Source of the DNA: Lethocerus indicus
Taxonomy: Eukaryota > Arthropoda > Insecta > Hemiptera > Belostomatidae
Direction of reading: 5' to 3'
Assembly (NCBI GenBank): GCA_019843655.1
Contig: JACDQD010000004.1
Span: forward strand, 1,302,001-1,366,000
DNA: 64,000 bases
Shown piece by piece: positions 661-63,263 of the stretch. The notes beneath the pieces were generated by a model. That model was not told the origin of the DNA, made no database searches, and saw only the letters and a list, made by a program, of their open reading frames with translations. Every line of letters starts with the position of its first letter. Position 1 is the first letter of the stretch. The position numbers were made by a program, and so were the translations under genes.

Positions 661-714
661 TCATTGGAAGTTACGCTATCCTGGTTTCGGTTTCTCGCCA
701 TTTTCAGTAGCATC
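661..714 (-). repeat. degenerate hammerhead-family fragment (copy A)
   Basis: On the minus strand this 54-base piece reads GCTA, CTGAAAA, TGGC, a short loop, ACC, GAAACC and then ATAGC. That is the order of the hammerhead core found in the better copies, at 28860-29068 for example. The core carries substitutions, such as G8 to A in CTGAAGA, so it should be inactive. An 8-base direct repeat CCACCGGC flanks it at 653-660 and 715-722, which may be a target-site duplication. This is the most eroded member of the family. Assignment rests on about 36 bases of similarity. Confidence 0.55.
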
Positions 715-722
715 CCACCGGC

Positions 723-3700
723 AAATTAGTGTGCCTCTCAGAATTTGGATTTGATGAGTTTCGAAATTGAAACTTTACTCGTTTCAGTTGTGCACGCGCA
801 TTCGAGGAACAAACAGCAAATTGAGTCCCGCCGCTGTCGGACTGTCTTCGGATGCAATTTACGTTAGAAATTAATAACATTTTACAGGTACAAGCCAGTT
901 TCAGCGTTTAAATTTCGAGATTGCTTTGAAAAATCGTACCCAACCCGGTGCAAGTGTAATACGTCGGCAAATTCCGACATAAACCCCGGATGTAAGAGGG
1001 CGGGAATGATTTATTTGGGGGAGGATTTGAGCTTAGGTGGAAGTAGGAGTTAGGGGTGGGACTTGTTAGGGGGCCAAGTTTGATTCCTTCTGGCTGGCCC
1101 GGAGAACACCGCCGTTTGGCCGGCTGCCCGAAGCCCCTTGTCCGCTTCATTTTTAAGCCGGAAAACCTTTCATTAAGCCCCCGCCGAACCCTCGCCCGCT
1201 CTTAGTTCCTAAGGAGCCAAAGCGCTTTGACGAACACTGAAGGTCAGTGCTGGCCAGGCACAGGTTAAGAAACAACATGTAATTTTATAGGCAATATATA
1301 CTATACGGTTAGGGGCACAATCCCAGTTATGGAATATACTATTTGATTGATTATACGGCACTGTTGACGGAATGTTGATCGTTGGCAAACAGGTGTTTCC
1401 ATTTGACGGTTATTTCGGGTGAAAGCTCCTTTGGGAGACCTTGCCCCGTTGCATTAGGCCGAAGATTGGTTTAACTGAGTTTATTAATACATAGTCGAGG
1501 GCCAAAGCAGATTATTAAGGAAACGTTAGCACATCACGTAGATTCCAGCATTCATTATGTTTATTATACTTTTTAATCGAGGTTTCGAATTGGCCGTATG
1601 ATAAGATGCATCTATCCGCATGCTCTTGCGGTTCGTACATTTCCTAACATGTTATAGAAATACAAATGGACATGCCCGTAGTGAATCCAATCGCCGATAT
1701 AATTAATTTAACTACATCACCTTTGTAAACGGTAAAGGGTAATGCTATATTTCATGTAAACTCCTAGCGTCTAGATTTCGTCGTGTCCGAATCCGGACCC
1801 GGCAAGTAGATTGCTTCTTTAAGGTTGGGCATTTAAATAAACGCGCCCGGTTGCCAAAAACGTCTTTTAAAAATATCCGCGGGGTTACTCGAAATTGCAA
1901 TACTCATTCGATATATTATTCCGTCGATTATTCGTGCCCGAATTTAATGTTTATTCGGAGAAATAGTGAAATGGGTGTGAAATACATTTAAATGCGTTAA
2001 ACGGGCGTTAACCGAGCGTATCGGCCAACCTTGACGTACGGCGTAATACTAAGGCCACTGCATCGGGTGATTTCCCTGTTGAGTTCTTAAAAAAACGAAA
2101 AAAAAGAACAACCGCTTTACTCTTCGACCCAATTAAACGTGAGACTAGAATGAGATCTATTTATAAGAAGAGGGTCGGGCAGGTGCGCGCCCGCTTATAG
2201 ATCAAACGGGAATGGGTAATGCGCACGGCCAGTTTCGCAAAGGCGCAGTTTCGCACTGTTCGCATTGTACTAATCTAGCCGCCCAAACGGAATATATTCC
2301 CAATCCTTAGGCTCCTGAATATTCCGTACAAATTCGCCGAAGGATATCGCGATGCAATTTAGATAAAGGCATTATCCGGACATTCGGCACGATCGAAACC
2401 TCGCGTATCTGGGGTATCGGATTTTTACGACCGAGGCGAATTTCAACGGCAAAGTACTCTTTCACCTACTGGACCGCGATTTCCATTTAAAAATACTTTA
2501 ATTTCGATAATATACGATAATGATAAATTATCGCTATTCTTTATCGTTTTAGGAAATTGATCGAATTTCTCTTCCTGTCACATACGCTACCTCAGCATTG
2601 ACCTATAATAAAATCTCAAAGACTTTACGGTTACTGTATAAGATGTTTTTGAAAAAAATGAGAATATATGTTTTAAGAAAATACCTGTATTCACGCCGTA
2701 CTCTCGACAACAAAATGTCTAGTGAAATGCTACATTTTTAATTAGCGCCTTCGCTTCAATTCCGTTTTATTCAAATTCGACGTTTTATTTGTCTTCAATT
2801 TTTGCGTGTTAAAAAAATTTCACAGGACCGGGGGCTTTGGCGGTTTTAAAGTCCCGTCGCAATTCCAGCGCGGCCAAGAACGCGTATTTCATTCACTCGG
2901 CCATTGTGCCCAGCGGAGCGAATAATTCCAATATCGTAGCATCGGCTGGGTTCCAACAACGCCGGGAACGGGTCACACGTTATATCCAGCGGAAAATAGG
3001 CAGTGTACAGGTCGGTGCCCCGAGGTACACCGGGTACACTGGTACCCTGGGCCGCCCGAGAACGCCGGTCCCAGTGGGGTTTCTTCGTCCCGTAACGAAC
3101 GTCCCCGGCGAATGGAGTTGGCACGGGGACAGCGGAAGTGGCCGCTGTTGGAAGAAAATCCAACCAACTTCTCGACTTCTCCAGCCGCCGGTTAACGACT
3201 TTCTGTGCTCGTCGTCGTGGTGCCCCCGCCCTCCTTTCAATTGTAGAAAAAGCCCACTAATTTTACACCAATATCAGGAAATATATCGGGCGCCTCAATA
3301 GCAGTTAGTTCTTCCTATTTCACTGTTCAAAAACTCGCCAAATCTAGTCGGTAAACCGAATCTCGACTTCTAGTTATCCTCAATTGCATTGTGTTAAAAA
3401 TGTTGCGCTCTGCCCTTTACCTACCAGAACGGATCCTACGAAATCGTTAATCCCGATAATAATGTTCATAACGTGTGATGAAACCTCCCTCTAATAATGT
3501 ACAACGATCATTTACCGTACACAATTCATTCAAATATGTGAGTCAAGAAGAATATTTAAACAAATAATAAACAATTTTGAAATAACATATATTTATAGTA
3601 CAATGGATATAAAATATGTGATATTTTAATTTTTTTTAAATTAATAAGTTTTCATACTGCCATAATCGATTATGTTCGAGGAATTAAAATATTTTAATAT

Positions 3701-4523
3701 AATATTCCGTGATGTAATACAATAGCGTACCGCATAAAACATTCAATATAAAACAGTGTCCTTATTTCAGAGTCTCAACAGTGGGAAAGATGTAAAATCC
3801 CGTTGATAATAACGCGACCCTTTGATCTGCAAGAAAATAATGTTCTGCGGGTAAGCAGAAGGCATAATAAAGGGATAGAGGGCGGTTATTGCAATATCGG
3901 AGGGGATGGAGCGTCTGTGGAGGGTTGGGGGATCGGTTGACAATATAGGAATTGACCCGTTCAAAATTGAACGGGTACAGAATTGGAGGGGCGTCGCGAC
4001 GCCGACATCCACGATCGCCGACTGAATCGTAAAGCCCGTTATAATAAACTGACGTCAAAATAAAGCCGTAAAAAGTAAGTGCCGCCAGCCGCGGTCGCTT
4101 AATAATGGCGGAAAAACTGGGACGCGGCGGAGCGAAACGCCGGCCGAAATAAGTCGGCAGACGTATGAATAATTCAGAATTTTGATATATCTCCGTTGCC
4201 GCATTCGAGCCGGTAAAAGAGAACTGTGAAATTTGTTTGTCCCGAGAAAAAGTGCATAAAAGGTAAAGGGAAGAAAAAACAAATAATTGAAGAAATAGGG
4301 CGATAATTTCATTTGTATTGTAAAACGTGAAGGACGCATACATCATTTTAAAATTCTCGACGAGGTTAACCGTCCGCTAACTGGCCGTATTAAACCTATA
4401 AATTCAGTGGAAAGATAAATGGCGGACATTTACAGAAGTGTATAATTTTTAAACATCTAGCAGTGACTTAAAATAGGAACGGGCAAAAAATTACAGAACT
4501 AGTTACTGTTTCCAGTCTGTAGA
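723..4523. other. intergenic, no gene seen
   Basis: AT-rich and GC-rich patches alternate. A perfect small hairpin CGATAAT/ATTATCG lies near 2516-2534. The 2840-3300 block is GC-rich with frames open on both strands, and a 194-codon minus frame spans 3762-4346. None resembles a known protein. An isolated CRE-like palindrome TGACGTCA lies at about 4051-4058. Confidence 0.45.
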
Positions 4524-5100
4524 GTTTTTTTTTTAACCTTTGTTATTTTGTACGATCAACATGAATGTTATAAGTACAAGTGCTGATTTTCGCGATAAAA
4601 GGAACCACCCAAAGATGGCACTTTTCAAACAAGAGCAATTGTAATCTAAGGGCTAAGAAGATCTCTAGGACAGAGGCGTTTAAGCCGTCGCGGGGGGGGG
4701 CGATAATGGATGTGTAAGGGAGGAAAGGGACTGAACGAGTGGATTAGGATGAGGAGAAAGGCGGGAGTGGAACTTCAGGAACCGGGATTTTGTTACTTCG
4801 TCTACTGTCGGGGTATGTTGAGGTCATGGTGGATTGTCTGGTTAGAAACATACCGGGGAGCATTAAGCCCCCGAAGAAGGACTTTTGACTGAAATCTCTG
4901 GATGTCTTTGTGGAACCCCATAGCTCTATAGCGTATGTCCGTGTCGGTTTAATTATCGCTTTGTAAATTGTCAGTTTGTTACTTAAGGTCAATTTTGATG
5001 TCCGTTTTAGTGATGGCCCTGAGAGTCCAAATTTTCTGTTTAAGTCGATTCTTTTGAGTCGGGTATGGGGATTCCAAGTCTGTAGATTAAGAATCATTTT
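4524..5100 (-). mobile_element. Jockey-like LINE, 5'-truncated 3' end (copy 1)
   Basis: Read on the minus strand, this is the end of a reverse transcriptase ORF, then a 3' UTR, then an A-rich tail (the T run at 4524-4534). It shares long stretches with the copies at 32526, 44460 and 47915. Examples are the words for GGAATCCCCATACCC, CATACCGGGGAG and the GAGATC segment of the UTR. The 5' side stops near 5075-5100, so the element is truncated, as is usual for target-primed LINEs. No target-site duplication was identified. It is the longest of the four copies and the only one that keeps the region between TWNPHTRLKR and the IIKP motif. Confidence 0.85.
4744..5097 (-). pseudogene. Jockey-like reverse transcriptase, C-terminal remnant
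   Basis: The 117-codon frame contains TWNPHTRLKR near residue 8 and NKLTIYKAIIKP near residue 42, followed by TYAIELWGSTK. This order is typical of the region just after the catalytic palm of Jockey-clade LINE reverse transcriptases, where an 'LYK-ILKP-W-YGIQLWG' motif is the hallmark. In the functional element this protein reverse-transcribes LINE RNA at a nicked target. Here the catalytic domain and the endonuclease are missing. After ELWGSTK the frame slips: the stretch matching the FQSKVLRTILN motif of the copy at 44460 appears in a shifted frame. The open frame therefore marks a dead fragment. Family assignment is firm, the exact clade less so. Confidence 0.8.
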
Positions 5101-8100
5101 GACGAAAAAATTCTATATAGATGTATAGTTTTTACTTCCCTTAAATGTATAAATAGCAGAATTTCTGGGTACATTGCTGTAAACTCGAGAAGTGTGAACT
5201 CAAAATACTCTCCTGCGTCAATTTCCTTACCAAAAAATAGTAACGACGTTTCGGTATTTAAAGCTCTAAATATAGTTCTATTCGGCGAATATACAGGCAT
5301 GCGGAAATGTATTCAGCCGCGAAGAATGTAATGTATTCGCCGGCGGTGTAAGAGCGAAGCGCAAAATTAGCAACGGATAAACGGTCTGTAGCAACCGAAG
5401 CCGTGACCGAACGTTTCCTTTCAAGTTTCGCCGCGTACAGACCGTTTTCCGAACACTCGGAAATATGCATAAAATCACTGAATCCGTCATGACCAAGTAA
5501 CGAAAGCCACGTGGGGGGTCGTTTACATAATGCCACTCACCGATGGCCCATCGTTTCTACCATTGGGATGCTAACGCACATAAACCGTAATAAAAGTGCG
5601 TGCCGCTTATTCAGAATGTTTTGCTATTTAAAATTCACGTTTATGTTTGATTTTCGTCCGATTGAAGACATTGATGCGCGCCAGATTTGGTTCGACACGA
5701 TATAAATTTGCCCGGGCCTCGTATCTTAAAATAACAATTTTTATAAACGCAAGCGCGCTAAATACAAACTTTCGGACAGTCGGAACTTCCTCAGTTCCCA
5801 TCATTTTCGAATTTGTGAATTCTACGTGTAATTAATTAGTTCTTACTCAATGAAACACAAAATGTAAGAAGGGGGGTTCGAAAATTCATCTTAAAAAAGT
5901 TCCAAAAGATTGGGTTATTATTATACAACTGATTCACTGAAGGTGACGTTCCAAAAATACTTTTTAAAAATATTCGTTTGATTCTTCCATCAATTTTTTT
6001 CTCTTTATTTTAGGCGCAACTATTCCATAAAATCTATTTATCAAGGAATTTTAGAATCTCTTTTGTGATTTTAATGTAAATTAGGGTTCAGGGAATTTTC
6101 TGTACACTTTCAACTTTACCGGTTACCTGTTGCAAAGACAACTGAATATGTTAAAATTTGTTTGGAAAATCCCGGATTTAGGATTGGCTCCTTTAATAAG
6201 GGCCCCCTCAGCTAACTAATTGCCCTTTATATTTGTTCTAGTCGATAAACATCTACCTGGAATTAAATTACCGACTGGGTGGCCCCGTTGGGAGAGAGAA
6301 CCCCACGCCCAGCCCCACCCCCCCCCCACTCCCGGGGGCCATAAGACGTTTGAAAGCCCAATTAAGAGAGAGGACATTGTTTTTAAAGAGAATAGGGGCC
6401 CCTCCGCCCTCCCCCACCCTGTGCCAACAGTTAGTTTTAATTTTACGCCAAGAAAGGGAAAAAAGAGGAAGAAGGGCAAAGGGACGAGGTAGGAACACAG
6501 CTGAAATTGAAAATCGAGCCATTGCAAAAGCCTTTGCTGGGCGGGACCCGTTTCTTCGTATAGATCCTTATTAACAGACGTTTCAGTACGTGCAAGATTT
6601 TACCGAATTCACGAATACGTGTGTAGAATACACCTATTTTTTTTATATATTAAAACAATTTTTGCTCAATTGTTTACTTCCCAACTTTTTTATTACCTAA
6701 CATGCATTCATGGTAGAATATGTCAGCAATAACAGAGTGTATTACAATACCGTCTAATATACAGTTATAAATTAAAACTTTTTTCAATTTATATTTGCTT
6801 AATACAATGTATTTGCTTTAAAATATTGTATTATCGCGCTGAAATAATGGCAAGTAAATAAAATTATTTGAAAAAATCTATTATACAAAATCGACGTTAC
6901 TATTGAAAGATGTTACTGGGCGGTGTGAAGGTCTGAAAAGTACGATACAAGTTACTTTGTTGTAGCTTTGCGACGGTCACGTTAGATCTGTCACCTACAT
7001 TGTCCTTGGCATGCGTTGTTAAGTGTTACGGCTCGGGAATGCGGCCACGATTGGCGCTGAATCGTCATACGTTTAAATCGTTTTTTTTTTTGACCGATAA
7101 GAGGTAGGAGGTTGAAACGCATAAATCCGTATCTGCGAATGCGAACTGGAAGGTTTTCATTTTCAAAACTTAATTTCCCTCGGACGATCTCCAGAGACTT
7201 TTTACGTGGACTATCCCCGGGTACATATATATCGGTACATATATATTTCCTACACATTTATTCTACCGGATAAACATTTTAATTGAGAGTAGGCGTGAGA
7301 AGTGCGGTAAAGAAGTTCGGGTCGCGCCAAAACGACTGGGCTCTTGGAGTTAAAGAACCGTGAAAATTGACCTATTAATCACCAAGAAAATCCTGTTGTA
7401 CCGCGAAGAGAGAGAGAGAGAGAGAGTAATATTGGACCGGGGACGAGTTTATTTTCGTAAGAAGTGTCTACGCTTGACCTTTGTCTCCTCGACCCCGGTC
7501 GTTTTAGTAATATATTCCCGGGTTGATAATTCGGCTCTCGACATCCCAGTCGAGTAGGAGGGTAGTGGGACGGTTGTGGTGGTGGTTGGTGGCCGCCCCA
7601 TACAATACATAAATCTCAACCGTTTGTCCTACCCTTGCCAAATGGCTACAGGTATGATCTCCTCGGCGTTGTTTTATAGTCGACAGCTGTTTCTGTTTAT
7701 ATCGGCCTTTTGACGATTCCGTTGGGTGGGATTTAGGGTGTTGTTTTACTGTTTCGATTGTTAGGATCCCGGCGACCGGTTACCGGGTTCGGTATTGGGC
7801 TAGCGGAGGAAATTTCGAGTGAATGGGACCGACAGCGGCCTGCTGAATGGGCGGCTGTGATGGTTTCTTCTCCCGGTGTCAATTTCATTCTCGAAATATT
7901 ATCCTGACGTCGGGCGACATTATCCTTTCCGCTGGGCCGGCCGCTCACCTCCGGCCCCATCAACAAAGACCGGGATTCATGCTTCCACTGATAGGACTGT
8001 ACTCGGCACCGGTTTAGTCTTCCGTTAACGGGAGAAAACTGCAAAATCCGCCCTAAAATTTACGTGAGTAACCTAAATGTCTCTGCCTTCAATGACTGCA

Positions 8101-23881: not shown

Positions 23882-23898
23882 TTATTATTAGTTTAGAA

Positions 23899-24012
23899 CA
23901 CCTGTTTTGTCGTCTGCGACAGGTTGAAATAGCGCAGATTTCGTGTGTTTCAGCCTCGTCTAGCGTGAAGATGGCGAACGGCCGAAACCGGTCCAGCAAC
24001 GTACGAAATCTA
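23899..24012 (+). repeat. hammerhead-family element (copy B)
   Basis: The left end, CACCTGTTTTG then TCGTCTGCGACAGGTTG, matches the shared terminus of the copies at 28860, 57145 and 62525. A plus-strand hammerhead-like core follows at 23961-23998: GTGAAGA, T, GGC, loop, GCC, GAAACCGG, TC, CAGC. The first core base is G instead of C, so cleavage should be impaired. The region after the core is shortened compared with the hairpin copy at 56953-57145 and ends CGAAATCTAC. No perfect target-site duplication was found. Confidence 0.75.
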
Positions 24013-27000
24013 CAAAAATTATCATTAACACGTCAAGCCTGTTTTTAATGTAATTGCCTTCATATAATAATTAACTGATTATTTATATTGTTATTTTGTC
24101 ACTTTGTGCGAAACCGCTCGAAGTGTGTATCAAAGGCGTTTGTGTTACACGTAAAAGTGCAGACTCGAGCATCGTGCACGGTGCCAGACAAGTGGCAATA
24201 TATGGGCTTTTGAAAGACAATATTCAAACTTCACTTGATGAAACTTCACGCTTTATAGATTATACAAGAGGAAAAATAAATATATACACAAATTATATAT
24301 ATAAGAACTCAGAAAGGCCCGTTTAACGAAATAAATATTATTGGAAATTTTTAAATTTGTCTATTAAATCAACGGAAATGTTCCTTCCGTTGAGTACGTA
24401 AATCACACAGTTGGATTGTCACACCGGCTATTAAAATAGCCTTGTAATGTGAGGTCAAGTTTAAGCTCAAACAATTGGCTGAGAACTTTCCAAATTGCAA
24501 CAGAACTTTTTGGGCTTGATTTACAATATCTAATTCTTTTTTCAATGAAATGTCGCAACCACGATCGTATTATTATCGGCCAAATAAACTTAGGGCGACG
24601 TTGTATTAACATTTTTCATTCAAGTCTGAATTGATGAGTCATTCGGTACGTGCAATACGCGTTGAAGGCGTCCCATTTCAGAGATGGCCATAGGCGGAAT
24701 CTTATAGGTTCTTTGTGTGCTAATGGACTGGATTCTTCTCAGCATCTATTTATAATCGGTGCAAACTCATCGCATTGTTTAATAGATGAAACGTAGGTAC
24801 GTTTTTATCTCAGAGCCGTATATATTTCCAGCCCGCTTTATTGCGAACAATTACGCCTTAATAATAATTGCCGGCATTGTGCAAAACGCAGGGTATACGC
24901 CAGGGAAACGATGTCTTCGGCTGAAATGAACGTCAAATTGCCACCGTCGAGAAACACCAATTTATTACAGAGTCGGTTTGCCCGGGATTTATATTTTCGT
25001 TTCCAGTCGGGGTAATTTCATTTATCTTTTTCACCGGTCTCGAAATCAAATCAAGGATCAATTTAAGATATACGTCGGAGCGTTTGCAATTGGACGACTG
25101 CGTGGGACGAATGTGGGCTTCGGGGCGTACAAAAATTGACGCCGAAAAACATTTTCGGCGTGGGCCGTTTTGATTTTCTCCCGGCTGTAATTCTTTTTTT
25201 TTTGCAATTGAAGCCGGTCGCAAGCCCAAGTTTTCATTACTCGTTATCAACTCGATGCTTCGTTTCAGTTGTGGATAAGTATTCTTTTTGGGCAAAACAG
25301 TCGCAAATACCGATTTTTATAAATTAAATTTATTATATACCGAGAGATATCTTTGTTTTCTGTTAAAACATTATACCGTTTTACCTTATGAACTAGTGAA
25401 ATGTGAAACCCTCACATTTTGTTTTGGTGGAACTTGAGCATCCAATCAACATTTTAATGCCGTCGGTGTAGAAACAAGTTAGGGGAAACCACGGAGGCAT
25501 ACGATGCAAACAAACCAGACGAAATAGTGGAGTTGCACACATGAAATTAGATTAAGAATAAAGTATTTATGCAATTTGTGCATTTTCTACGCGTAGACAC
25601 GCCGTTGTTGTACGATTAATGTGGTCAATTGTTTCGTTAAATAGAAATTTTTTGACTGCATAAGCGAGCAATTGTTGTTAAATACTGTGCCTTATTTAAT
25701 TAACTCCTGCGGTTTGCCCTAATCCAAGCGCCTGGGGTTGTATTTAATTGGTCGCAGGAAAAAGTGAACCAATTATACTCTAAACATATATTTCTCGTAT
25801 AATTAAATAATCGACTACATAAAAGCGCGTATTGCAAAGTTCAATTTGCAAGAAATGTTTTATATTTAATCATTAATATATGACGGATTGAATTGCTTTT
25901 TATTTTAGTATTTTAAATTGTGCTGTAATTTTTAATTAAAATTTGTATTCTCGAACAAGATTGTTCGAATCGAAAACGGGTTATCAATACATATTGGGGA
26001 TTCGTTCTCCCAATTTAATAGTTCGTTTTCGTTATTCTGAGCGAAAGTAATATAATTTCTATTTGGAAATTGTGATAATCAATTTTCTGTTATAAATTGA
26101 TAGTTTGTATATAATTCACTAAAGGGGGCGACTTGAAAAACGCAAATTCTTGCTGAAATATGTTTCATTTCCCTCGGCCAAAGGTAGTAAACCGACGGCT
26201 TTAGGATCGCACGTGGCCGTGACCACATCGAAATTACAAGATTAATTTTTAAGCGTTACAAATTGTGTCTTAAAAAGCACGAATTCCAATTTGGATATTT
26301 TACAGCTTCCAGCTTCTTTACGCGCGTCCTCGATTAATAATTCATGCTCCATTAAATTAAATTATTAAAACTAATACAACTGCTTCAACTAGTTATTCAA
26401 TAGTTATTGGAACTTTATTAGTGTCAGGTTTATTTAATAGAATGAAGAACATTTATTGTAATTTTGTAGGACATTTAATCGCATCGTAATCACAAAAACA
26501 AACAGTTCCCCTATTCAGATGCAAAATCTTGTTCCTGTTAAAACATGTTCCGTAAAAACTTGTTAAAATAGACAATATTAGTTTTACTTTTCGCTCTATT
26601 AATGTATCGATTTTAATTGCCTACTCACGAGTTTTCGGTACACCTCAAAGGTGAATAATACGCGAAGTGCCTTCGTGGGTAAAATTCACCAGATTTTCAC
26701 CAGATTAAATGTGCGGATTTTCGCATATGGAACAGAGGGGAAGTGAGAGAGAACCCCGATTATTTCGACACGCTGAATTAATAAAGGGAGAGAACCGGTC
26801 CCAATTATTCCCGATTAAGGGACAAAAGTTATAAGCGCGACTTTTACTGCCACATTTACCCCAATTACACCGGCCTCTCTAAAGCTGAGTATAAATCACT
26901 TTCAAAGCCCGAAACCTATAATCTTACGGCGCCAAATAAATGCCAATTTATTTACATCCGAACAATCGGTTTGGCGAATGTTTATTTTTTTTTTTTTTAG

Positions 27001-28846
27001 AGAAATATTTCAATAGACATTCAATAGATAATCAGCTTCAAAGAATTACACAGTCCAGTAATTTTGAATAGAAAACGTTCCATCGCCAGCGTGAAATTAG
27101 ACAGCTATTACTAAAATTACTACAACAATATGATCGTCATAAGATGAGTATACGAGCAAATGAGTGAATGACTAATGGCAAATTAATGAATTGCTGTAAT
27201 ACGTGACTCGGCGTTATGCGTACTCAATCCAATTAGATATTGTACGGAATTGCGTTAATGTAACTGCACATATCAGTGATTATAGCATCAAATCGATATT
27301 GGAGTGACACACAGTCTAATTAATTGATTGTATATATATTTTTTTTTTTTACGGATATTTGATTTGACCTATAAATAGACTATTGGTTGTAGTTTTTTCT
27401 CGAGCCGTCGAAAGTATCTTTTATAAAGTACACCATCTTAGTCCTTTACGACGGTCTCCACAACATTGAATTCTGTAAAAACATTCCCTCAGAATTGTAT
27501 CTATTGAGAATTTTGTGACTTTATTCTCGTCGATTCCCAAGGGAAATATAAAAAGATATTCCTGCTATGCACTCAGGTAGCTTTTGAACGTCGACCCCTT
27601 TGTAGAAAATATTATAAGCCTATTTGGCTTTCTGCCGAGTTTTCGATTGTCTCTATTGACTAGACCATACTAGACGCCGAGACGCTTCTTGTAATCTTCT
27701 CTTGGCGTGTATTATATATTGGCAGTTTTTCTTGTCTTATGTCGAGTTTAACGCTCAAAATAAAATCAATAATATATTTTTCAGACTGCGGTCTGCTGTC
27801 AGAACAGAACAGAAGTAAACGAATGGCACATGGTAAAGCGGTTGTCCGTTTTTTCCGATATTTATGCAGATCTACTCGACTAAATCTTTATTTTCAATAA
27901 ATTTTGTCCGTTCGTTCGCCCAGTATTTCTTATATTGTCGGTGGTTTATTTCCGCCACATCTTTCTATAAGTATAATATACATTCAACATTATTCGGGGT
28001 TACGCAGAACGGGTCGTGATCGCGACGTAAGCTTTACAAAAATTACATAATATCGCGACCCCGACTGCCTTAAATTGTTCTGTATTTTCAACGATTTTAC
28101 AATCGGAATGTAAAAATGATAAAATCCACCCGTACATCGTCCCGCCGAACGACCGTACCGACTGTAAATTAAGTCTGGAATCGCGTACACGCCGCCGTGT
28201 TCGACATTTCCGCTGACTCCGTGTCCGATCCACTCTGGGAAATTAAATTCGGCCGCCGTAGAAAAGGGGAAAAAGCGCTGGAAAAAAGAAACTCGAAGGT
28301 CCCCCTGTTGGGGAGAATATCAATATACGGTAATGATGTCGGGGGACAGCCGGTCTGAATTAGGGCGCCGAATTTATTCGGTTTTATAAATGAGTGGGGC
28401 GGCCTTATTGAGGAAATATTGGGGATACGCGATAGGGAAGAAACTAAATTCGCATAAGTTATATAAAGTAACTTTTATTAACTTTATTTTCAATTTAGAC
28501 GTATTCGTATTTGAGCGTTAAGTGGTTCCAAATATGCAATGAGACGTAATTTCAGTATTCATGAAATACGACCATTTTTATTTTGTTTAATTTTAAAGAA
28601 TATCGAGTAGCACGTTATATAATTATATCGTAGTTATGACACCACGATCTGAGAACTGAGCTTAACCCATTTTCTTTCCCGAATTGCCATTAATATAACT
28701 CCAATTTCTACGAACCCAAGTGCAGCACGTAGATTGAAAAAATTGTCTCAGTCCAACACGTCCTTCTCAGGTACAGTAACTGTGAGGTATCTAATAGTAG
28801 TTTTGAGAAATGTGTGTTTGAAACACAATCCGCTTCTATATTTAAA
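24013..28846. other. intergenic, no gene seen
   Basis: AT-rich and largely unique. Small perfect hairpins lie at 24369-24393 (TCAACGGAA/TTCCGTTGA), 24426-24441 (GGCTATT/AATAGCC) and 25951-25968 (TCGAACAA/TTGTTCGA). TTCACCAGATT is present twice in tandem at 26684-26706. No known domain appears in any frame. Confidence 0.45.
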
Positions 28847-28859
28847 TATCAATATTTTA
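28847..28859 (+). repeat. target-site duplication, left copy
   Basis: TATCAATATTTTA here is repeated exactly at 29069-29081 and bounds the hammerhead-family element between them. Confidence 0.85.
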
Positions 28860-29068
28860 GTTAACTCGCCTGTTTTGTGGTCTGCGAGGGGTTGGAATGC
28901 CGTAGGTTTGTGGTGTTTCTGTCTCCTCTCGCCGGTTCGGTCTTTTTCGCTAGACCGGTTTCGGCCGCTCGCCATCTTCAGCAGCGGCGTTAGTCACTCT
29001 TGAGTATGCCCGAAAAACATCCAAAGTGCCGACAGTGACTAACAGTGAAGACGGCGACAGACCTACGG
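28860..29068 (-). mobile_element. hammerhead-bearing short retroelement, hairpin copy (copy C)
   Basis: This 209-bp insertion sits between perfect 13-bp direct repeats. The plus-strand left end, CCTGTTTTGTGGTCTGCGAG, is the terminus shared by copies B, E, F and G. An intact-looking hammerhead core lies on the minus strand at 28948-28986. The two ends are inverted copies of each other (CCGTAGGTTTGTGG near 28909, ACAGACCTACGG at 29057-29068). A second inverted pair, TTAGTCACT/AGTGACTAA, sits further in, so the whole insert folds into a hairpin. Variable-length target duplications point to target-primed insertion, not a cut-and-paste transposase. Hammerheads with a tiny stem III are known from Penelope-like elements; no reverse transcriptase is present here. 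Confidence 0.8.
28948..28986 (-). ncRNA. hammerhead ribozyme, best-preserved copy
   Basis: Read on the minus strand the order is CGCUG (stem I, 5' side), CUGAAGA, an extra U, GGC-GAGCG-GCC (stem II, 3 bp, 5-base loop), GAAA, CCGG (stem III), U, C, then UAGCG (stem I, 3' side). Stem I pairs over 5 bp including one G-U. All invariant core residues are present: C3, U4, G5, A6, G8, A9, G12, A13, A14, the A15.1-U16.1 pair and C17. Predicted cleavage falls between minus-strand bases 28953 and 28952. CCGG leaves no loop for a single molecule but is self-complementary, so cleavage would be expected from a dimer. The extra U beside stem II is the main departure from the textbook fold. Self-cleavage is inferred. 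Confidence 0.75.
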
Positions 29069-29081
29069 TATCAATATTTTA
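29069..29081 (+). repeat. target-site duplication, right copy
   Basis: Exact repeat of the 13 bases at 28847-28859. Confidence 0.85.
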
Positions 29082-32000
29082 CGTTTAAAACGCGTAACAA
29101 GGAAATCGAGGATACTGGTCTAAGCGGGTTGATAAAGAAATACGAGAGAGTCATGAGTCGGGCGAGGGGTGGAAGCGCGAAACTCTTCTCATTTAATAAG
29201 GAGAGTTTCAACTGAGTGAGTTCTTAATTGGCTTAATGCGGGGCACAGATAAATTTTCCCGAAAGTGGCACTTGAGCGAATGTCCCCCCCCACCCCACCA
29301 CCACCTCCTGCCATCCGGCTTTAGGGGCACTTTTTAAAGCTAATTATTTCGGTCCACCCACCCCGCCCCCCCCACCCATCACAACCCCTCGATCACTTTT
29401 GTTGCACCCGCACGAACAGAACAAATAATCGTAGACAATTGAATCGTAGACAATTCAATTTGGTCTGATTAACACTGCAGTGCTGTTGAAACGTACACCT
29501 GTCTACCTTATTGTCTCCAATTCGGTTGATTAGACGGCTGCTCGGTTATGGGCGCCAATTAAGTGTATTTAAATCGAGACACGATTCCCGATATAACGCT
29601 ATCCGAATTACAGCTCATTAAGAGGATAACTGTCTCTCGAATCATTGCGCTGGGACCATATTCTGCCCCTTCGATAAATTAAATCGTAGGGCGTCAGAGC
29701 TCATTCAGTAATACGGTGGGTCGTCTTAATCGGCATAGATATTTATTTCTTTAAAACGTAGCGTACTACACTGGAATCCAGATATCTGGATTTGCCTACT
29801 TCAAATCGCAAATACTGTAGAGTCTAATATTCAGTTCCAGTTCTATATTTTACAGATTTTGTATCGCTACAATAAGGTGAACAAATGTCAAAATATGTCT
29901 CGCGCTGAAAGTCATTTTTTCTAGGAGTTTGCCTTGTATAGAGACATAAATAAATAGAGGAAATTACAGCGTAAATCCGCGTTCTTCCCCCCTCCCCCCC
30001 CCCTGTTACTTTTAATGTAGTGTAATGTAATAGCTTTTAGGGCGACGGGTGGACCGAAGAGGGCCCTGTGGCCCTTCGAGGGGCATCTTTTCAAGGGAGT
30101 GATTTGTCGACTGGGCCCAATAAATGTTTGTGGCCTCTCCCTCCGAGTTTAGGGGTGTGCGGGGGACCGGCTTTATACGACGGACGATGGCGTCTGTACG
30201 GCGGTACTTCGCCTGCTTTCAAGCCCCCGTTCCCGTAACCCGCCACGCTTATCTTTCCCCGTCACACCCTCCGCCTCGTCTCCCAATTATTTATTGACTC
30301 TGTGTCAACCCCCCCAGAGCCCCACTAGTGGCTTTTGCGCGGGCCTAATCGTCCCTTAATACGTTCGACGCTCCGCCACATCGGAAACCGGGATTTACGG
30401 TAGTCCACGAGACCGGTTATCTCTCGCCCCCTTGGAAAACATTGTTTCTAATCGAATAGGCCCTGTATATCCCGTTATAAGGTGTAAGCTGTAATTTAAA
30501 TGTAAATGGCCTACATAAATCAAGGCCCTTACCTGGCACCGACCTACTTATTTCCCTCCAGAGGTAGGAGCAGAGGGATTTTGCTCCGTCATTGGAGAAA
30601 AAATAAAAAATCGGGCAGTAACTAATTTTTACAATTGTAAAAATCTACAATCAATTGTTGACTTCTTCAGTAGGAGAAACACTATAGGATTTTAAAACCT
30701 TTGACCCAAACAGTAGAACAATATATTTTAAGCATTTTGTTACTTTATGCATGATTAAATTCACGTGGAAATAACAATCTTCTGGAAATTAATTTAACGT
30801 GAAAAATATTTTCTATTACGCATTTATATTTTTAACGCGCTTATACTATTCGGTCTGAATGAAATAATTTAATTTGTTATTCTAAACTCACTAACCGGAT
30901 TTACCTCCTCCCTGTGCAAATTCAATATTACAGGACCGCTACTGCGTTCCTGAAGTTAATTTATTTTGTCGTCCAGTTTAAATTACCGTCCACCACTGTG
31001 TTTGACGTTTATATTAAAAAGAATATATATTTTCATATCCAATAGATGTCGTTTGCAGCTTAATAACCGTCACTATAAGCTGGTTCTTTTTTTTCGCTTT
31101 GGATCGCGATTGCGAATCAATCTCAAATCAAAATAGTTGTAATGCGCGCAAGAATAGAGAAATATGTTTAGATGTTCAATTTCATGTTCGCTGTTTTCCC
31201 ACTGTCCTAGTTTCAGGTTTATGGAAGGGCGATTGGCCGACGTAACGTTTAGATACAGATCCACCCCTCAGCTACAATCAAGGGACACGTGTCAGGCAAT
31301 TTGAGGGGGTGGGCAGAGGGCACTTGAGGGTGGTCGCAGACAGCCCCCCCCCCCACACCCCCGGCCGGGTCATAACCGGCTTCCTCGCTTCCCATTAAGT
31401 TTTATCGTCCCTCCCATTGCTAGCCCCCCACCCCGGGGACCTTACTCAATGCAAAAGGCTGCCCCGAAATCGAATAAATTCGAAAGTCATTCTCGAGATT
31501 ATGCCGAGAAAAATGAAGGAAAAAACGTTGAGCGCCCTCGAGGGAACAAATTTTCCCAGATTCGCATAATAATTAATGTACGTCGCTTTAATTCATAAAA
31601 CATATTTATTCAGTTTTTAATTATACCGACTTAGATTTTAATTTACTCTTCAGCGTAATAAGATCCAAAGTTACCGGCGATTTTCTGGTCGATAATAATT
31701 TTCTTGTAAAAACGAAAAGCAGGCCACCTGCTAGGTCGACTAATTACGCAAAAATTATCTAACGACATCTTCAATTGGTAAAAGTGGTCTGTAGTTGGAA
31801 TCAATCAATCACTTTTAACGATAGTTAAAAGCACGTCAGAAATATTCCAAATAACACGTTGTACGCTTCAATTTAGTTGGCGGGCGTAAGGTTCATTACC
31901 ACCAAGTAATAAACCGCTATTACTGGAATTGTAAGCGAAATATATCGATTTATTTAGGATAAATTAAATAATTCGTATCAAACTGAATGTAATTAGTTTA

Positions 32001-35598: not shown

Positions 35599-35720
35599 AT
35601 TACCGTGGATTTTTTGTGTTTCGGCCGCTCGCCATCTTCAGTAGCGGTGTTAGTCACTGTCGGCACTTTGGATGTTTTTCGGGCATCCTCACTGCACCGT
35701 CACTCGTACTGTCAATCATT
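35599..35720 (-). repeat. hammerhead-family fragment, cut inside stem III (copy D)
   Basis: The minus strand shows AGTGACTAACACCGCTA, then CTGAAGATGGCGAGCGGCC and GAAAC, and then leaves the family consensus at 35617. The CCGGTC cleavage site and everything after it are absent. On the other side it shares the segment GTTAGTCACT, GTCGGCACTTTGGATG, TTTTTCGGGCAT with copy C. TGTAATAAT flanks it at 35590-35598 and 35721-35729. That is a possible 9-bp target duplication, but weak because it is AT-rich. Confidence 0.7.
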
Positions 35721-44930: not shown

Positions 44931-46612
44931 GAAAAACTTTTGCTATGTACGGCCTCTTGGCCGTAAAATGCAAATTGTAATGTTGCCAATTACAAATTTT
45001 CGATCCAAAAAAAAAAATGAAGGAAAAATTAGATGGCGGTAGATAGAGGTAATTAAAATTTGTCAATCGATCCGCCACATGAAAGCTACACCGAACCGTG
45101 GGGTTCCCAACGAACCCGAGGAATCCCGTTCTCGGGGCAATTGAGCGCCGGCACTAGTGTGGAATCAACAGCGGTATTATTCGGTACGACTTCAATCGAT
45201 GCAAACGGAATGGCGAAGGGGCATTTGCGGCCACGTCGGCCTGAATAATTCAATGGGACATTATTAGCCGGCCCCCGTTCATAATTATACCGCCCGTTCG
45301 GCATTCGGCCCCCATTCAATAATAACCTAAATTGTGAGTTAATTTCATACTTGATATTGTTTGTGGGAAAATTCACCGCTCGAGGACCGATCATCACTAT
45401 GTTTGATGCCCGGTGAAATTGCCGTTCGCATACAATATTCGGGCGAAATTTCAATTTTTGAATGAATGGGGTAGAAAATTGGTCCTCTATTTATTGGAGG
45501 ATCATGATATATCCGGACGTCGTATCAGAGATCGCGGTCGCAATTATAGCCTCAATTTAGTTTCTATAGATTGTATCCCGCAATAGATATATCGATTTTT
45601 CAAAAACAATAATACACGAATTACCAGTTATTTAAGGATTTTTTTCCAAACGGGATATCTGGCCAATAGAACTGGAATGAAATTTATGCAGGATACAAGA
45701 CTAATAGAAATGATTTTGGTACGAAATGGGAAAAACATGCGATTACTCTTTAGGAATACAAGTAGGAGAGTATTCATTTTCTGTATTTATATTCTGAACT
45801 ACATGTTTGCTTTCGATTGGGTTATCGTTTCCGAAGGATATGTTTGGCGAAGAAGCGGCTCACCGGAATCCCGTCTGAAACCGGGAATAAAATAAGTTAA
45901 TGTGACTGACAGTTAATTTCAATGCAGAGGACGACCTTCTCTCCCTTATTTGTTTTTTTTTTATTTGTATTTCCGTCCGCCTTCCATCAGAAAGGGAAAT
46001 AAATCCAGTGGGTCACGGCCGTATCGCCAACGGGAAATAGAATTGATATTCTACATTTTATTATAACTACAATTTTATCGTTTGTCAAACTTTTATACAG
46101 TAACGAATAACTTGCTATTTCACATTTACGATATTTTCAGGAGTATCCAAGAGGAGTTGTCGAGACTTTTGTCTCCATTCTGGGTCCCGAAGTTAAAAGC
46201 AATTTCGTCTCGCAGCAACGAAATGCAGTGAAGTACATTCTTCTTTCTGGTAATACAAATACTTTATTTCCCTTCCAATATACGTAGTGATACACAAGAT
46301 GCACAAATTTTGTTTTATACATGAAAATATACTTGCGTCACATAATTGGGACATAAATTTTCTTTCTACTAATGCAGCGAACTGCATTAATTTCAAGTGC
46401 TTTCATATACTGGCGAGAATTGCACGCACTACTAAAACAAAATTGATCTGGCATTTTAAGATCATCACTAATGTTGAGATGTATGCTTCTTGAAAATTTG
46501 TATCGCATGTTTCGTTAGTTGATTATCGGACCAGGAAAATTATTATTTATCACCGATTAGAATTATAACCTTATTTCAGCATATTGAGGAAGGATGACAG
46601 TGTTATTGTCGC
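44931..46612. other. intergenic, no gene seen
   Basis: AT-rich with GC-rich patches at 45080-45240 and short frames only. Nothing recognised. Confidence 0.45.
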
Positions 46613-46756
46613 TGCTGATTTCGTGTTATTCTGTCTCCTCTCACTGGTTTGGTCTTTTGCTAGACCGGTTTCGGTTGTTCGACATCTTCAGTAGAAGAGA
46701 CAGATAAACACGATATCTACTGTAGTCCAACCCATCGCAGACTACGTAACAGGTAT
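46613..46756 (-). mobile_element. hammerhead-family element, hairpin copy (copy E)
   Basis: The left arm holds GATTTCGTGTTATTCTGTC, CTCTCACTGG, then GGTCTTTTGCTAGACCGG. The right arm returns inverted: GAAGAGACAGATAAACACGA, TATCTACTGTAGTCCAACCC, then the family terminus CGCAGACTACGTAACAGGT. A minus-strand hammerhead core lies at 46659-46694 with CTGAAGA, GAAA, CCGG, TC and TAGC all kept. Stem II has changed to GTC/ACC and can no longer pair well. No clean target-site duplication was found. Confidence 0.78.
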
Positions 46757-47914
46757 TCCAAAACGTACTAAATACCGTCGCTTCCATACGGAAATCGAAA
46801 CTGTTCTGAAAGGGGTGGCTGGATCGATTTTTGAACTAGGCGAAATGAACGGGGCTTTTTCTCCAGGCGGTTGGTTTAGTTACGACCCCGCGGTCCACCC
46901 CCCCGACTCTTTGCAATATCCCGAAGATCTCGAACAGGTGCTCCGCCCATTCATAAACAGCCCTCTGTATCTGAATGCCCGTCTTCACCCCGCCAACCCT
47001 CATCTCCCCCACGGGACCCTCGAGGGAGGCCTGATTTGAACCGCCCCCACCGGGCCCCAAACCCTGCCTTAATTAAAACGCCAACTTGCATTATGACCCG
47101 CCCGAGTATACAAACGGAGAAACTTTCAAATTATTGCTGGAACTGTTTCTGTATATTTCTTTTAAGATTTTATATCATTCCGCTTTATCGATAAACAAAT
47201 ATTCGGCATGTAATTTTTTATACGACCATTGCTAGTTTCTGTGTTTTTCAGGCAAACTTTTCGTACGCATTTTTTTTGTTTAATTTATTAAAATACGTTT
47301 CACCAATCGTTCGCGTACAGGTAAGGTGTGTAAAGGAGTTGTAACTATAATTTCAGTACATACCCTTGCCTCGATTCGGTATGGAATCGTCTATATCTAC
47401 TACGTAGTCTAGACATATATTTTAACGGTATTAATATATTTACGTTAAATTCCTACAATAATGACGAGAGCGTATTTAAATCGATACGCCCATCGGACTG
47501 CCCACCGCCTAAATATAGGGCAGGAGGAGACCACTTCGGGTCGGATATGGCGGGAATGCGAAGAGAAAATCCGGTAGAGGGTTGAGGGCAGAGGGAAGAT
47601 TGTAGAGAGGGTGGAGTGGGCCCGTCGAGCTCCGGCTCATTAGGGGTTGCACATCTCTCTCATTAACCGGGACCCCTCCCACACACCCCCTCGTTATACA
47701 TGCCCCACCCTACAATCAATTAGCCCAGTCGACTGCTACGTATACATTATTGAAATATGATTGACGTAAGTGTTGTAAAATAGTCTGGTAAAAGATACGC
47801 CTGCGAAGGTTCCAGGCAAATATTTCGACAATACGACATATATTCCTCTCAACTTCCAATAAATATTTCAGCCGCAAGAGACAAAATAAACTTTTTTTAT
47901 TACAAATTGATGTT
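46757..47914. other. intergenic, no gene seen
   Basis: GC-rich at 46810-47090 and 47500-47720, AT-rich between. The 74-codon frames on opposite strands at 46815-47060 overlap each other and carry no domain. Confidence 0.45.
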
Positions 47915-56937: not shown

Positions 56938-56952
56938 ACTAATTATAACATA
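56938..56952 (+). repeat. target-site duplication, left copy
   Basis: ACTAATTATAACATA is repeated exactly at 57146-57160. Confidence 0.9.
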
Positions 56953-57145
56953 CAGTAGATTTCGCGTGTTTCTGCCTCATCTCGCTGGTTTGGTCTTTTG
57001 CTAGACCGGTTTCGGCCGCTCGCCATCCTCCAGTAGAGAAGTGCCGAAACCGGTCTAGCAAAAGACCGAACCAGCGAGAGGAGACAGAAACACGCGAAAT
57101 CTACTGTATTACAACCCCTCGCAGACTACAAAACAGGTATGTTGA
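56953..57145 (-). mobile_element. hammerhead-family element, near-perfect hairpin (copy F)
   Basis: This 193-bp insert sits between perfect 15-bp direct repeats. Arms of 65 bases at 56952-57016 and 57043-57107 are inverted copies with very few mismatches, separated by a 26-base loop. The right side continues with 38 unpaired bases ending in the family terminus CGCAGACTACAAAACAGGT. Each arm holds the GGTCTTTTGCTAGACCGG segment. On the minus strand the core reads CTGGAGGAT instead of CTGAAGAT, so the ribozyme should be dead. With copy C it gives the clearest boundaries for the family. Confidence 0.85.
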
Positions 57146-57160
57146 ACTAATTATAACATA
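57146..57160 (+). repeat. target-site duplication, right copy
   Basis: Exact repeat of the 15 bases at 56938-56952. Confidence 0.9.
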
Positions 57161-60251: not shown

Positions 60252-60793
60252 TGGGGTTGACAACTAAGTAATTGCGGAATTCACCGACAAGTGGCGTTGT
60301 ACATATTTTTAAGTACGTCAACATCTTTGGCACAGATAAGATTCTTCGATACGTTATTATTTGATCCTTTCTGAAACATTCGGTATCAAAATTACATTGA
60401 CCAGTCGAATTGTGTGTGTGTGTATAAAAGCTAAAACACGGTGAACCGAAGTGAGCATTTCCGTTACATTTTGCTTTTTTATTTTCGCAAAGGTGTTAAT
60501 GCCTCGCGGGCTCATACAAAATTGCCTTAAAAAAAAATTCCGGTCGGGGGATTTTTCGTTAAAAGACGAGGAGCGCTCTGGACGTCCGGTGGAGGTCGAT
60601 GATGACCAAATAAAGGCCGTTATTGATTCGGATCGCCATAGTTCGACGAGGGACATTGCAGAGAAACCGAATGTATCTTATACGTGCATTGGAAACCGTC
60701 TGCGGCTTATCTGTGCAAAGATGTTGACGTACTTAAAAATATGTACAACGCCACTTGTCGGTGAATTCCGCAATTACTTAGTTGTCAACCCAA
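60252..60793 (+). mobile_element. mariner transposon, internally deleted, with long inverted ends
   Basis: The ends begin TGGGGTTGACAACTAAGTAA (left) and TTGGGTTGACAACTAAGTAA (right, inverted), with TA outside each (60250-60251 and 60794-60795). The ends resemble those of mariners that start with a GGTTG word and carry AAGTAATTGCGG. The two ends stay inverted copies for 89 and 88 bases (60252-60340 and 60706-60793), differing by one substitution and one indel. That is far longer than the roughly 30-bp repeats usual for mariner. Only the N-terminal part of the transposase lies between. The true right half seems to have been replaced by an inverted copy of the left end. Confidence 0.92.
60484..60705 (+). 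pseudogene. mariner transposase, N-terminal remnant
   Basis: The frame reads KKKFRSGDFSLKDEERSGRP, then VEVDDDQIKAVIDSDRHSST and RDIAEKPNVSYTCIGNRL. This is the DNA-binding half of a mariner transposase: the linker with GRP, followed by the second helix-turn-helix. The stretch resembles the mariner groups related to the cecropia and mellifera subfamilies; the subfamily call is tentative. The first helix-turn-helix is missing upstream and the whole DD34D catalytic domain is missing downstream. The frame runs directly into the inverted terminal repeat at 60706. It cannot catalyse transposition. Confidence 0.9.
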
Positions 60794-62525
60794 TACAAAT
60801 AAATATAAATTTGGTCTATTCACCAGTGCAGACAATGCTTGTACAATAAAACTTGTAAATGAATCACAATCGTAGAATACATCCAGGAAGGGAAAATGGT
60901 TCGTTCTAATTTCAGTGTAAACTACAATAATCCACGAGTCTATGTGTATATTTAAAAAATGTTCTGCACATGACCGGATCAATGTGGCGCTGTGGCGACT
61001 GAAGAGGGCCGTTGCTCCTCTCGTGTCGAGTGTTCTCAACAAATGGCATTTAAAATATAATTCTGCCCGCGACCAACTTCAAGAGACGTGGAGGTTTCCG
61101 CGCCATTTGCACGAAAAGGGCCGTAGCGCAGAAACAACACCGCGCCCCAGTTTCCATCCCCCGGTTAAAACCCCGGGCGACATTTCACAATGTTTTCAGT
61201 CCAAACGTTTACCTTCCGTAATATATTCGGAGGTCTGTAGAATATGTTCAGTTAGTGACGCAAAAACAATTTTATTTAACGGCTCCCTTTGCATTGAAAA
61301 CATGTCCGCGTATTATTTCAGAGCGGCTGTGGAACGGCGTCGGTAATTTTATTTTAAAATTATTTCTCATCATTTGAATATCTGGCCGGAGCATAGTTGT
61401 TTTCCGGTAGAGGTGGAATTTTTTCTATCCTACAACAGTGAAATAATCAAGTCTCGAAGGCCCACAGTACATTGAGGGAAAAACGTCTTGTAAGGAAAAA
61501 TGAAGTAACATTTTGATATGCAGCAGCGATGGATTTCTATCTTATATATAAAGATGAGACAGTATGTATGTTTGTCAGGGGTAAATACCGGAATAGTGCT
61601 TCGTGGCGGACTGGAGAAAGTGACTTAGACTTTAAAAAGTACTCACGGCTGAGAAAACAACCGGTGACAATTCAACGATGTTCCGCTCAACAATGTCCGT
61701 ATCGAGCCCCACATTGTTGGACAGATGTTTGGACCTGTTGTTGCGGTGAAAACCCGATTTTTAGTTGAAATTTAGCGGTTAAAAAGAAATGTTATTCAAA
61801 TTACCTTTATGGGGCAAGAGTATCTCACCCGGATATGACTGAGATTTCAGAATTCCGCGAATTTTTCGAACGCAAAATTATCGATTCTCGATTTTTCAGC
61901 GAACTTAAAGATTACTGTTTTTAAAGGCATATTTACATTCTGACGTAGCTTTTTTTTTGGAAAAATGAGAAGATTTAATTAGCGTGAAACAGTCTAAAAC
62001 CTAAATTTAATTAACCGTTTGTTTCGCGCCCTGATTTTGTATTGAAAAAAAAAAAAAGAAAAGCCCGAAAGTATCAAAGTAGTGGGCGCAGGGGGGGGGG
62101 TGGTATTAAGGCGCTACTTTAAAAACAAATTTGATTATTCCTTTGTGGGGGATGTTTAATTTGCGGCCAAATAAGAAAGGCGAAACTTTTTTTTTATACC
62201 GAGTTTTTTTCCGGTCTATTATTCGAATAACGACATTACACTGAGGCCGTGGCCGGCGCTCCTTCCTTAATTAAGTTTACTGACGGCGAACGTTTTTAGA
62301 GTATACACCAGACGTGTTCTCCATTTTTTCACCCCCCTCCAAGAACGGTCCTTCTCGAGGTCCGTGCGGTCGGCCGAAAAATATCCTCGATTGTTTTAAA
62401 TTTCAACGTCAACGGTAATGAATTTCGTTTCGAGCCAAAGCTCTGTGTTCTGCGCTGTATCGGCCGTGAATTATTTACGGTATCCAACGCTACTTTTTGA
62501 ATAAAACCTTCTTCAGTAATCAGTT
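60794..62525. other. intergenic, no gene seen
   Basis: Includes an A13 run near 62045 and ten G at 62091-62100. The frames at 60942-61346 and 61529-61768 show no recognisable domain. Confidence 0.45.
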
Positions 62526-62663
62526 TAACATACCTGTTTTGTGGTCCGCGAGGGTTGGAATACCGCACTGCGGTCCGCCAGTACGAGTCACACCGCTACT
62601 GAAGACGGCGAACAGGCGAAACCGGTCTAGCAAAAGACCAAACCAGCCGCAAACCGACGGTTT
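62526..62663 (+). repeat. hammerhead-family element (copy G)
   Basis: Starts with the full family terminus AACATACCTGTTTTGTGGTC and CGCGAGGGTTGGAATACC. It then passes into a plus-strand hammerhead core at 62595-62631: GCTA, CTGAAGA, C, GGC, GAACA, GGC, GAAA, CCGG, TC, TAGC. Stem I pairs GCTA with TAGC perfectly. Stem II has a G-G mismatch (GGC facing GGC). The core is followed by AAAAGACCAAACCAGC as in copy F. The right boundary is uncertain and no target duplication was found. Confidence 0.8.
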
Positions 62664-63263
62664 TGTGCAATCGCCCATTAAGCCTCCAAATCGTACCGGA
62701 TCAGCCTTGTCGTCACACCACCTCTTAGTGAATTCCAGCAGAATCGCCATTTTTAAGTATATTGAATATTGAATAAAAGGAATTCCACAAGGAATTATAA
62801 AATGTGTTGACTCGTTCAAAAACAAGATAATTTTTGTAAGTAATGTCTACGGAAATACAAAACGCTTTGTAATTTTGTTGTTATATTCTCATTCAGTTCG
62901 TTTCATAGAGCTGTTCATCTACGCATGGCGGCTACCTACGTAGTCCCAATTAGTACTCATTTCTTTTGTAAATCTGTATATTAGGATAGTATAGCGCTGC
63001 GGGTATAACGATAGAAATTGATTGAATTATTGGGAGATCCTTCGGGGGTTTTACACTATCCCTATTTTCCCGTTTTCAATTCGAGCGTACCGCTAGAAAT
63101 CTTGGAAAGATACTTTTTCTGTCAATACTTTTTTTTTTGCCTCCTGTATTGTTTTTTGCCCCCTTTTAGTTAACAGAACATTAGAGGGAGTGGGAAAGAA
63201 GCGGGGCTTCCTAATTGTTGTTCTCGGCCAAGTGGAATGAGGGGACGCGGATGAGGCTGAGGT

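Follow-up and report, generated by a model that had tools for sequence, protein, structure and literature searches.

The minus strand of a 64-kb window of the Lethocerus indicus genome (the window being the whole stretch of DNA analyzed) carries, at positions 28948 to 28986, every position of a hammerhead ribozyme core in the correct order. An earlier note had read this site as an intact-looking hammerhead in a short dispersed element, hammerheads with a minimal stem III being known from Penelope-like elements and retrozymes. The locus raises the questions of whether the motif is a hammerhead, what kind of element carries it, and what that element might use it for. Minimal hammerheads of Penelope-like elements (PLEs), and their cleavage as dimers, were reportedly described by Cervera and de la Pena in 2014 and by Lunse et al. 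in 2017. We consider it very probable that the motif is a minimal type I hammerhead of a PLE, situated in the pseudo-LTR (pLTR) at the start of the reading frame, and that the insertion around it is a dead head-to-head product; any cutting, the role of that cutting, and the joining of cDNAs are what we infer from this arrangement. The reading as a minimal hammerhead of the Penelope type is essentially right, and the kind is already known.

The motif and its conservation within a dispersed family

The motif was read from the letters and from a core-pattern scan. Along the minus strand, stem I is formed by CGCUG (28986-28982) and UAGCG (28952-28948). Between these lie CUGAAGA (28981-28975), an extra U (28974), stem II (GGC at 28973-28971 and GCC at 28965-28963, with GAGCG between the strands), GAAA (28962-28959), CCGG (28958-28955), and UC (28954-28953), and the predicted cut falls between 28953 and 28952. 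The core letters C3 U4 G5 A6 N G8 A9, G12 A13 A14, and U16.1 H17 are all present in sequence order. Stem I reaches the 5 bp first ascribed to it only if the G·U pair of G28982 and U28952 is counted.

The core order alone is weak evidence, because the core-order pattern by itself returned 21 rows (11 distinct sites) in the 64 kb, where shuffled sequence averaged 6.06 rows. When a 4-bp stem I and a 3-bp stem II were added, limits chosen once the motif had been seen, one site was found in the window and none in 300 dinucleotide shuffles. The letters and this count confirmed the core order, the 3-bp stem II, GAAA, CCGG, and UC on the minus strand as originally described. Scans of the window for tRNAs, long ORFs, and tandem repeats found nothing that accounts for the motif, and the exact motif pattern had no occurrence in viral contigs.

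We searched the 427-Mb genome with 121 nt of the element, which gave 2016 first-look candidates, of which 40 were scored, and 48 listed matches. Together with the window, 39 loci (40 places were fetched, one of which overlapped another and was dropped), picked by likeness to the window copy, yielded 106 aligned copies, which we refer to as the similarity set. A near-arbitrary set comprised twenty 10-kb segments placed at round coordinates along contigs C1 to C6 plus the window, or 264 kb, and held 38 element fragments. Both the genome-wide candidates and these fragments bear out the description of the element as dispersed. By rough extrapolation there are tens of thousands of fragments genome-wide, a figure that is rough because the fragments cluster.

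Among the motif-spanning copies of the similarity set, the core letters stand at exact spacing in 61 of 89, and in 45 of 89 they are accompanied by a 4-bp stem I and a 3-bp stem II. The CCGG loop is found in 56 of the 61 exact-spacing copies. The base after A9 is U in 58 of these 61 and C in 3, which upholds, for loci chosen by similarity, the claim that the extra U is a family trait shared by most other copies; judged by alignment columns alone, in which insertions are hidden, the position is U in 79, C in 10, and G in 1 of 90 copies. For the near-arbitrary set, the core stood at exact spacing in 11 of 23 motif-spanning copies, and 3 of 23 kept the core and both stems (the window copy, one in L049, and one in L050). 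This family of copies already refutes a chance match in unrelated sequence. Such a match would agree with the 11 sites that carry the core pattern alone and with the lack of support from Rfam, but it is at odds with the absence of both stems from all 300 shuffles and with the recurrence of the core at exact spacing in both sets of copies, and we regard it as vanishingly improbable.

We then compared agreement with the consensus across columns of the near-arbitrary set. The match was 0.955 in core columns versus 0.843 in other non-CpG columns, and random column sets equaled the core value in 0.0002 of 20,000 draws. Elsewhere, the match was 0.878 in non-core columns within the motif, 0.866 in the 40 columns upstream, and 0.839 in the 40 downstream. 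Random substitution of the core, which the earlier note had named as an outcome that would speak against its reading, was not seen, although the gap between 0.955 and 0.84 to 0.88 is modest. We take this conservation as modest support because the columns hide insertions, and coding constraint or subfamily history could explain part of it. Covariation was sought in the stem pairs within the family and none was found, the paired counts being equal or close to the expectation from independent columns.

Two loci contain short series of direct copies about 80 to 125 nt apart in a retrozyme-like layout, with four copies of the motif at 457-790 of L026 and three at 755-1023 of L037. The L037 copies have the core at exact spacing and a stem I that fails to pair over 4 bp, and the L026 copies have ACG instead of AUG and two extra C residues ahead of GAAA.

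The insertion and the element that carries it

The motif lies within an insertion of 209 nt (E1; 28860-29068, minus strand) composed of an inverted arm and a direct arm of the PLE pLTR. The inverted arm (29006-29068, plus strand) is a 63-nt inverted family copy with an internal deletion, which stops at the no-tail end of the family (CCTACGG, read outward), and the remainder of the insertion is a direct copy. At the opposite end of E1 is a "tail" segment (28860-28899, minus strand), which spans the interval from one alternative 3' end of the family to the other. The insertion is flanked by a 13-nt target-site duplication (TSD), with the copies at 28847-28859 and 29069-29081 identical at 13 of 13 positions. 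Directly after the motif, E1 exceeds the 184-nt family consensus by 2 nt. E1 is a short, dead insertion, as judged from its shortness, from a length that is off the consensus frame after the motif, and from the predicted trapping of its hammerhead in a hairpin.

A second complete insertion in the window (E2; 56953-57145, plus strand) likewise has an inverted arm and a direct arm with tail, flanked by a 15-nt TSD (56938-56952 and 57146-57160). Its arms are 67 nt long and 96% complementary, and its core on the minus strand, CTGGAGGA, is broken and not intact. There are three older copies: the copy at 46601-46780 (minus strand) keeps the core with stems I and II broken; that at 62521-62680 (plus strand) keeps the core and stem I, with a mismatch in stem II and C where the extra U would be; and in that at 23891-24030 (plus strand) the core begins GTGAAGA, so that C3 is lost. 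A further copy (35618-35703, minus strand) ends after GAAAC, and a decayed fragment (664-711, minus strand) reads CTGAAAA. By eye, the window also contains a frame that resembles the N terminus of a mariner-type transposase (60445-60846, plus strand) and a frame akin to the end of a LINE reverse transcriptase (4747-5112, minus strand).

Copies of the family end in two ways, either after CCTACGG or about 40 nt further on, after GTTAAAC, the added segment corresponding to the PLE "tail"; the alignment ends fall mostly at 145 to 149 and at 183 of the 184-nt consensus. Neighboring copies within 400 nt of each other formed 33 head-to-head, 5 tail-to-tail, and 17 tandem pairs. Flank and upstream sequence shared exact repeats of 12 nt or more at 22 of 81 ends versus 0.68 expected, a count in which 6 of the 22 ends (in L014, L025, and L037) are internal repeats and a single insertion can count with both of its ends. 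The TSDs vary in length from 9 to 17 nt.

A genome search with a PLE query gave 120 matches, the best of which was L069. Positions 2567-3706 of this locus are an open piece of a reverse transcriptase (RT)-endonuclease frame in which YVDD and GIYKITC..GVYIGQTGR were seen by eye, and the coding region before 2567 is broken into pieces. The pLTR lies on both sides of the RT-endonuclease frame, at 1122-1308 and 3811-3950. Of the 8 loci fetched from the 120 matches, 7 contained the pLTR (L069 to L073, L075, and L076), and L074 did not. Pfam placed RVT_1 on the L069 frame at an E value of 7e-4, which is under its cut-off, and returned no GIY-YIG row. At an E value of 0.001 or less, the L069 protein had 317 relatives, 120 of which were listed; most of those listed have PF00078 (RVT_1) and PF26215, some have PF01541 (GIY-YIG), and the top relative among the matches listed is from the water bug Ranatra chinensis (45%). 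A search of the genome for PF01541 gave 0 matches and 3 candidates, a zero that we do not read as absence because Pfam puts even the PLE query below the GIY-YIG cut-off.

Two of the PLE loci are arranged as repeats. In L073 (C1:10497500-10502100), PLE units follow one another head to tail every 1.68 kb or so and are 99% identical within the retrieved portion; three units were seen, each of which keeps the core, and CAGG, which is no palindrome, replaces CCGG in the stem III loop. The PLE matches around this locus run from C1:10485217 to C1:10508928. In L072, part of the PLE forms a 0.93-kb inverted repeat (860-1790 and 2125-3056; 96% identical) with the motif in both copies.

The element is a PLE pLTR and not a retrozyme. 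The marks of a PLE are all seen in this family: a single frame joining a telomerase-like RT to a GIY-YIG endonuclease, pseudo-LTRs on both sides of it, a tail of 30 to 40 nt at one end, and variable TSDs with head-to-head inverted copies. Of the two carriers named in the earlier note, the PLE stood, since the pLTR flanks the RT-endonuclease frame, and the retrozyme did not, since the pairs of copies are mostly head to head. A retrozyme would be a non-autonomous element that moves via small circular RNAs cut by the hammerhead, and the short length, dispersal, and very high copy number of the family, as well as the series of direct copies in L037 and L026, would suit it. It is nevertheless an unlikely explanation, given that the TSD-bounded insertions are inverted-direct pairs with a PLE tail, that the consensus frame crosses the motif, and that helix III is a single pair here whereas it is stable in most invertebrate retrozymes according to the excerpted text of a review (PMC7761336). 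Even the direct series fit it poorly, given the two C residues before GAAA in L026 and the unpaired stem I of L037. The features by which animal non-LTR retrozymes are recognized (tandem units of 170 to 400 nt, a canonical type I hammerhead, and no frame) do not describe this family.

The likeness of some insertions to long inverted repeats, as in the arms of E2, could instead point to a DNA transposon of the MITE or fold-back type in which the motif is coincidental. We rejected the MITE reading, and consider any such transposon very unlikely, in view of the variable TSDs, ends that differ by the tail of about 40 nt, arms that are unequal and internally deleted, and the RT-endonuclease frame between copies.

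Start codon overlap, folding, and predicted cleavage

The extra U has a place in the coding sequence of the PLE. Together with A9 and G10.1 it forms an AUG (28973-28975, minus strand), the start codon of the PLE frame, which in the 184-nt family consensus is open from this AUG across both 3' ends for 38 codons. Counted from the start of the frame, the two 3' ends fall near +74 and +115, and the predicted cut would lie 23 nt past the A of the AUG.

The same overlap is found in a second PLE lineage, represented by two loci (L050 and L074), which shares the core and A9-U-G and differs in its stem letters. Its hammerhead-like form reads CUGAUGA...GAAACGUC, and the A9-U-G is a possible start codon. 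The L074 motif, at 2523 (plus strand), reads CUGAUGA-U-GGAACC...GUUC-GGAAACGUC; a PLE endonuclease match lies 165 nt upstream of it, and 60 codons are open from A9-U-G. The L050 motif, at 2034 (minus strand), reads CUGAUGA-U-GGAGAACC...GUUCC-GAAA-CG-UC, and its frame is shut after four codons. By eye, the third pair of stem II, C-G in the window family, could be A-U in L050 and L074. Neither locus was matched by an Rfam hammerhead model.

Rfam at its gathering threshold reported no hammerhead in the whole window, and at an E value of up to 10 it reported none in positions 28800-29300, in ten loci of the family, in five PLE loci, or in one stretch of the second lineage. The earlier note had counted the lack of a match even at relaxed score among the results that would overturn its reading, and in the stretches tested that result was obtained; it counts against a canonical hammerhead. 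Minimal PLE hammerheads, as described in excerpts of two papers (PMC7761336 and PMC6155905), are type I motifs in pseudo-LTRs, with helix III minimal or missing and without obvious tertiary contacts, and are thought to act as dimers. In these descriptions we found nothing that sets the Lethocerus motif apart in kind.

Within a single molecule, helix III would consist of one A-U pair capped by CCGG. The proposal that two transcripts could share a 4-bp stem III through the self-complementary CCGG was correct as to the palindrome and too short in its length: ACCGGU is a perfect 6-nt palindrome, through which two molecules could form a common stem III of 6 bp. Stems I (4 to 5 bp) and II (3 bp) can form, yet the hammerhead is not the predicted fold. 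The penalty for imposing it is 1.8 kcal/mol for the 39-nt motif, rises to 4.6 for the 184-nt consensus, and reaches 10.0 for E1, where the inverted arm is predicted to pair with the direct arm. A competing hairpin (GGUCU/AGACC) has a probability of 0.89 to 0.95 in the consensus. The predicted energy of a double hammerhead was -23.3, less favorable than that of two monomers (-24.4) and that of the best dimer (-32.4).

A similar design is that of the axolotl HHR_Amex1 (PMC7229834, excerpted text), which is also a type I hammerhead with a single-pair helix III and a palindromic tetraloop; its 331-nt monomer is a poor cutter, and the amphibian motifs are efficient as dimers. In contrast to the Lethocerus family, it occurs as tandem repeats of about 330 nt, has contacts between loops I and II, and is called non-autonomous.

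A parallel in layout is Poseidon of Anolis carolinensis (PAc), a member of the Penelope/Poseidon clade, for which we draw throughout on excerpts of a single report (PMC11167929). The PAc frame starts at stem II, C3 and G8 lie ahead of the start codon, and cleavage takes place 26 bp past it, comparable to the 23 nt into the frame predicted here. The two also agree in the start codon layout, the tandem pLTR-ORF-pLTR organization, and two neighboring sites within the frame that delimit the tail (ends at about +74 and +115 here; the commonest RT start at 111 to 118 bp in PAc). The sequence and the host are different, the CCGG palindrome loop is particular to the Lethocerus motif, and our case is known from sequence. 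The PAc hammerhead cut only with protein present (PMC11167929), and for that reason a poor fold taken by itself is no proof of inactivity.

The overlap with the start codon also allows that the ribozyme is a fossil, the core letters being kept only because they serve as start context and opening codons for the PLE protein (AAG-AUG-GCG-AGC...) and the hammerhead likeness being inherited and no longer in use. We consider this a real possibility, if somewhat short of an even chance. The open consensus frame over the motif, the absence of covariation in the family, the unfavorable fold, and the small share of near-arbitrary copies with both stems are all in line with it, as is the report that PAc hammerhead mutants were unchanged for insertion in vitro, so that Anolis insertion in vitro did without the hammerhead (PMC11167929, in part). 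On the other hand, the columns of C3-U4-G5-A6 and G8, which lie ahead of the AUG, are also 0.92 to 1.00 conserved, and the second lineage carries the core with other stem letters.

One-tail insertions and a proposed mechanism

Beyond the motif itself, the insertions of this PLE follow a regular pattern. In 60 sequences, all 14 TSD-bounded inverted-direct insertions had one tail end and one no-tail end; among the other pairings, some of which depend on one another, the figure was 24 of 43 (one-sided Fisher test, p = 0.0013). The 14 insertions come from 13 sequences (L010, L013, L015, L021, L022, L031, L041, L044, L046, L049, L050, L057 [twice], and the window). E1 also has one tail, as determined by hand, and is outside the 14 because its short inverted arm failed the end criterion. 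Two more insertions with one tail each, in L019 (TSD of 10 nt) and L039 (9 nt), fell outside the 14 owing to the tighter TSD search range, and one L014 "TSD" that is internal element sequence was left out. In L044 and one of the L057 insertions, the first four TSD letters, AAAC, may be the element end.

The form with one tail is already known, because in the Adineta vaga Penelope a 31-bp tail is optional on one inverted pLTR (PMC3846280, excerpted text). That element resembles the Lethocerus PLE in having inverted and direct pLTRs head to head and its first codons in the pLTR. It is unlike it in TSD length, 8 to 10 bp there versus 9 to 17 nt here, and the main text of the report never uses the word "hammerhead" (PMC3846280).

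The strict one-tail pattern suggests that the reverse transcription on each strand uses a different start. PAc cuts and extends both target strands, and its tail is bounded by two adjacent in-frame RT start sites, of which the commonest is 111 to 118 bp into the frame (PMC11167929). A fixed assignment of starts to strands is not favored, because the PAc start sites showed no strand difference in vitro; a coupling of start sites within one insertion is compatible with that result (PMC11167929, as excerpted).

From this layout, we suggest the following course of events. An intact tandem transcript (pLTR-ORF-pLTR) would carry a hammerhead in each pLTR, and cleavage would take place 23 nt inside the frame, possibly aided by the pairing of two copies via ACCGGU or by the protein of the element. 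The RNA downstream of the cut would lose the start codon and the first seven codons and would retain both RT start sites, so that the cut, by parting the RNA from its start codon, may turn a message into a unit-length template. For E1, reverse transcription would have begun at two internal sites past the motif (near +74 and +115 in frame coordinates), with one cDNA per target strand and the two cDNAs joined head to head. Generalized, a complete PLE insertion would be the product of two reverse transcriptions from different internal sites, one giving the tail and one the no-tail end, one per cut strand and strictly asymmetric, with the upstream ribozyme cut freeing the start codon from the template RNA. 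We put this general scheme forward tentatively, as one that may hold but that we would not wager on.

The role of the hammerhead in PLEs was called unknown in the excerpted text of a review (PMC7761336). The one-tail rule, at 14 of 14 insertions, is a figure for which any model of PLE insertion has to account. The genome of L. indicus is a useful test bed in this respect, with its many fragments, a tandem array whose period is close to 1.68 kb and whose three units seen retain the core, and another lineage that shows the A9-U-G overlap with the start codon.
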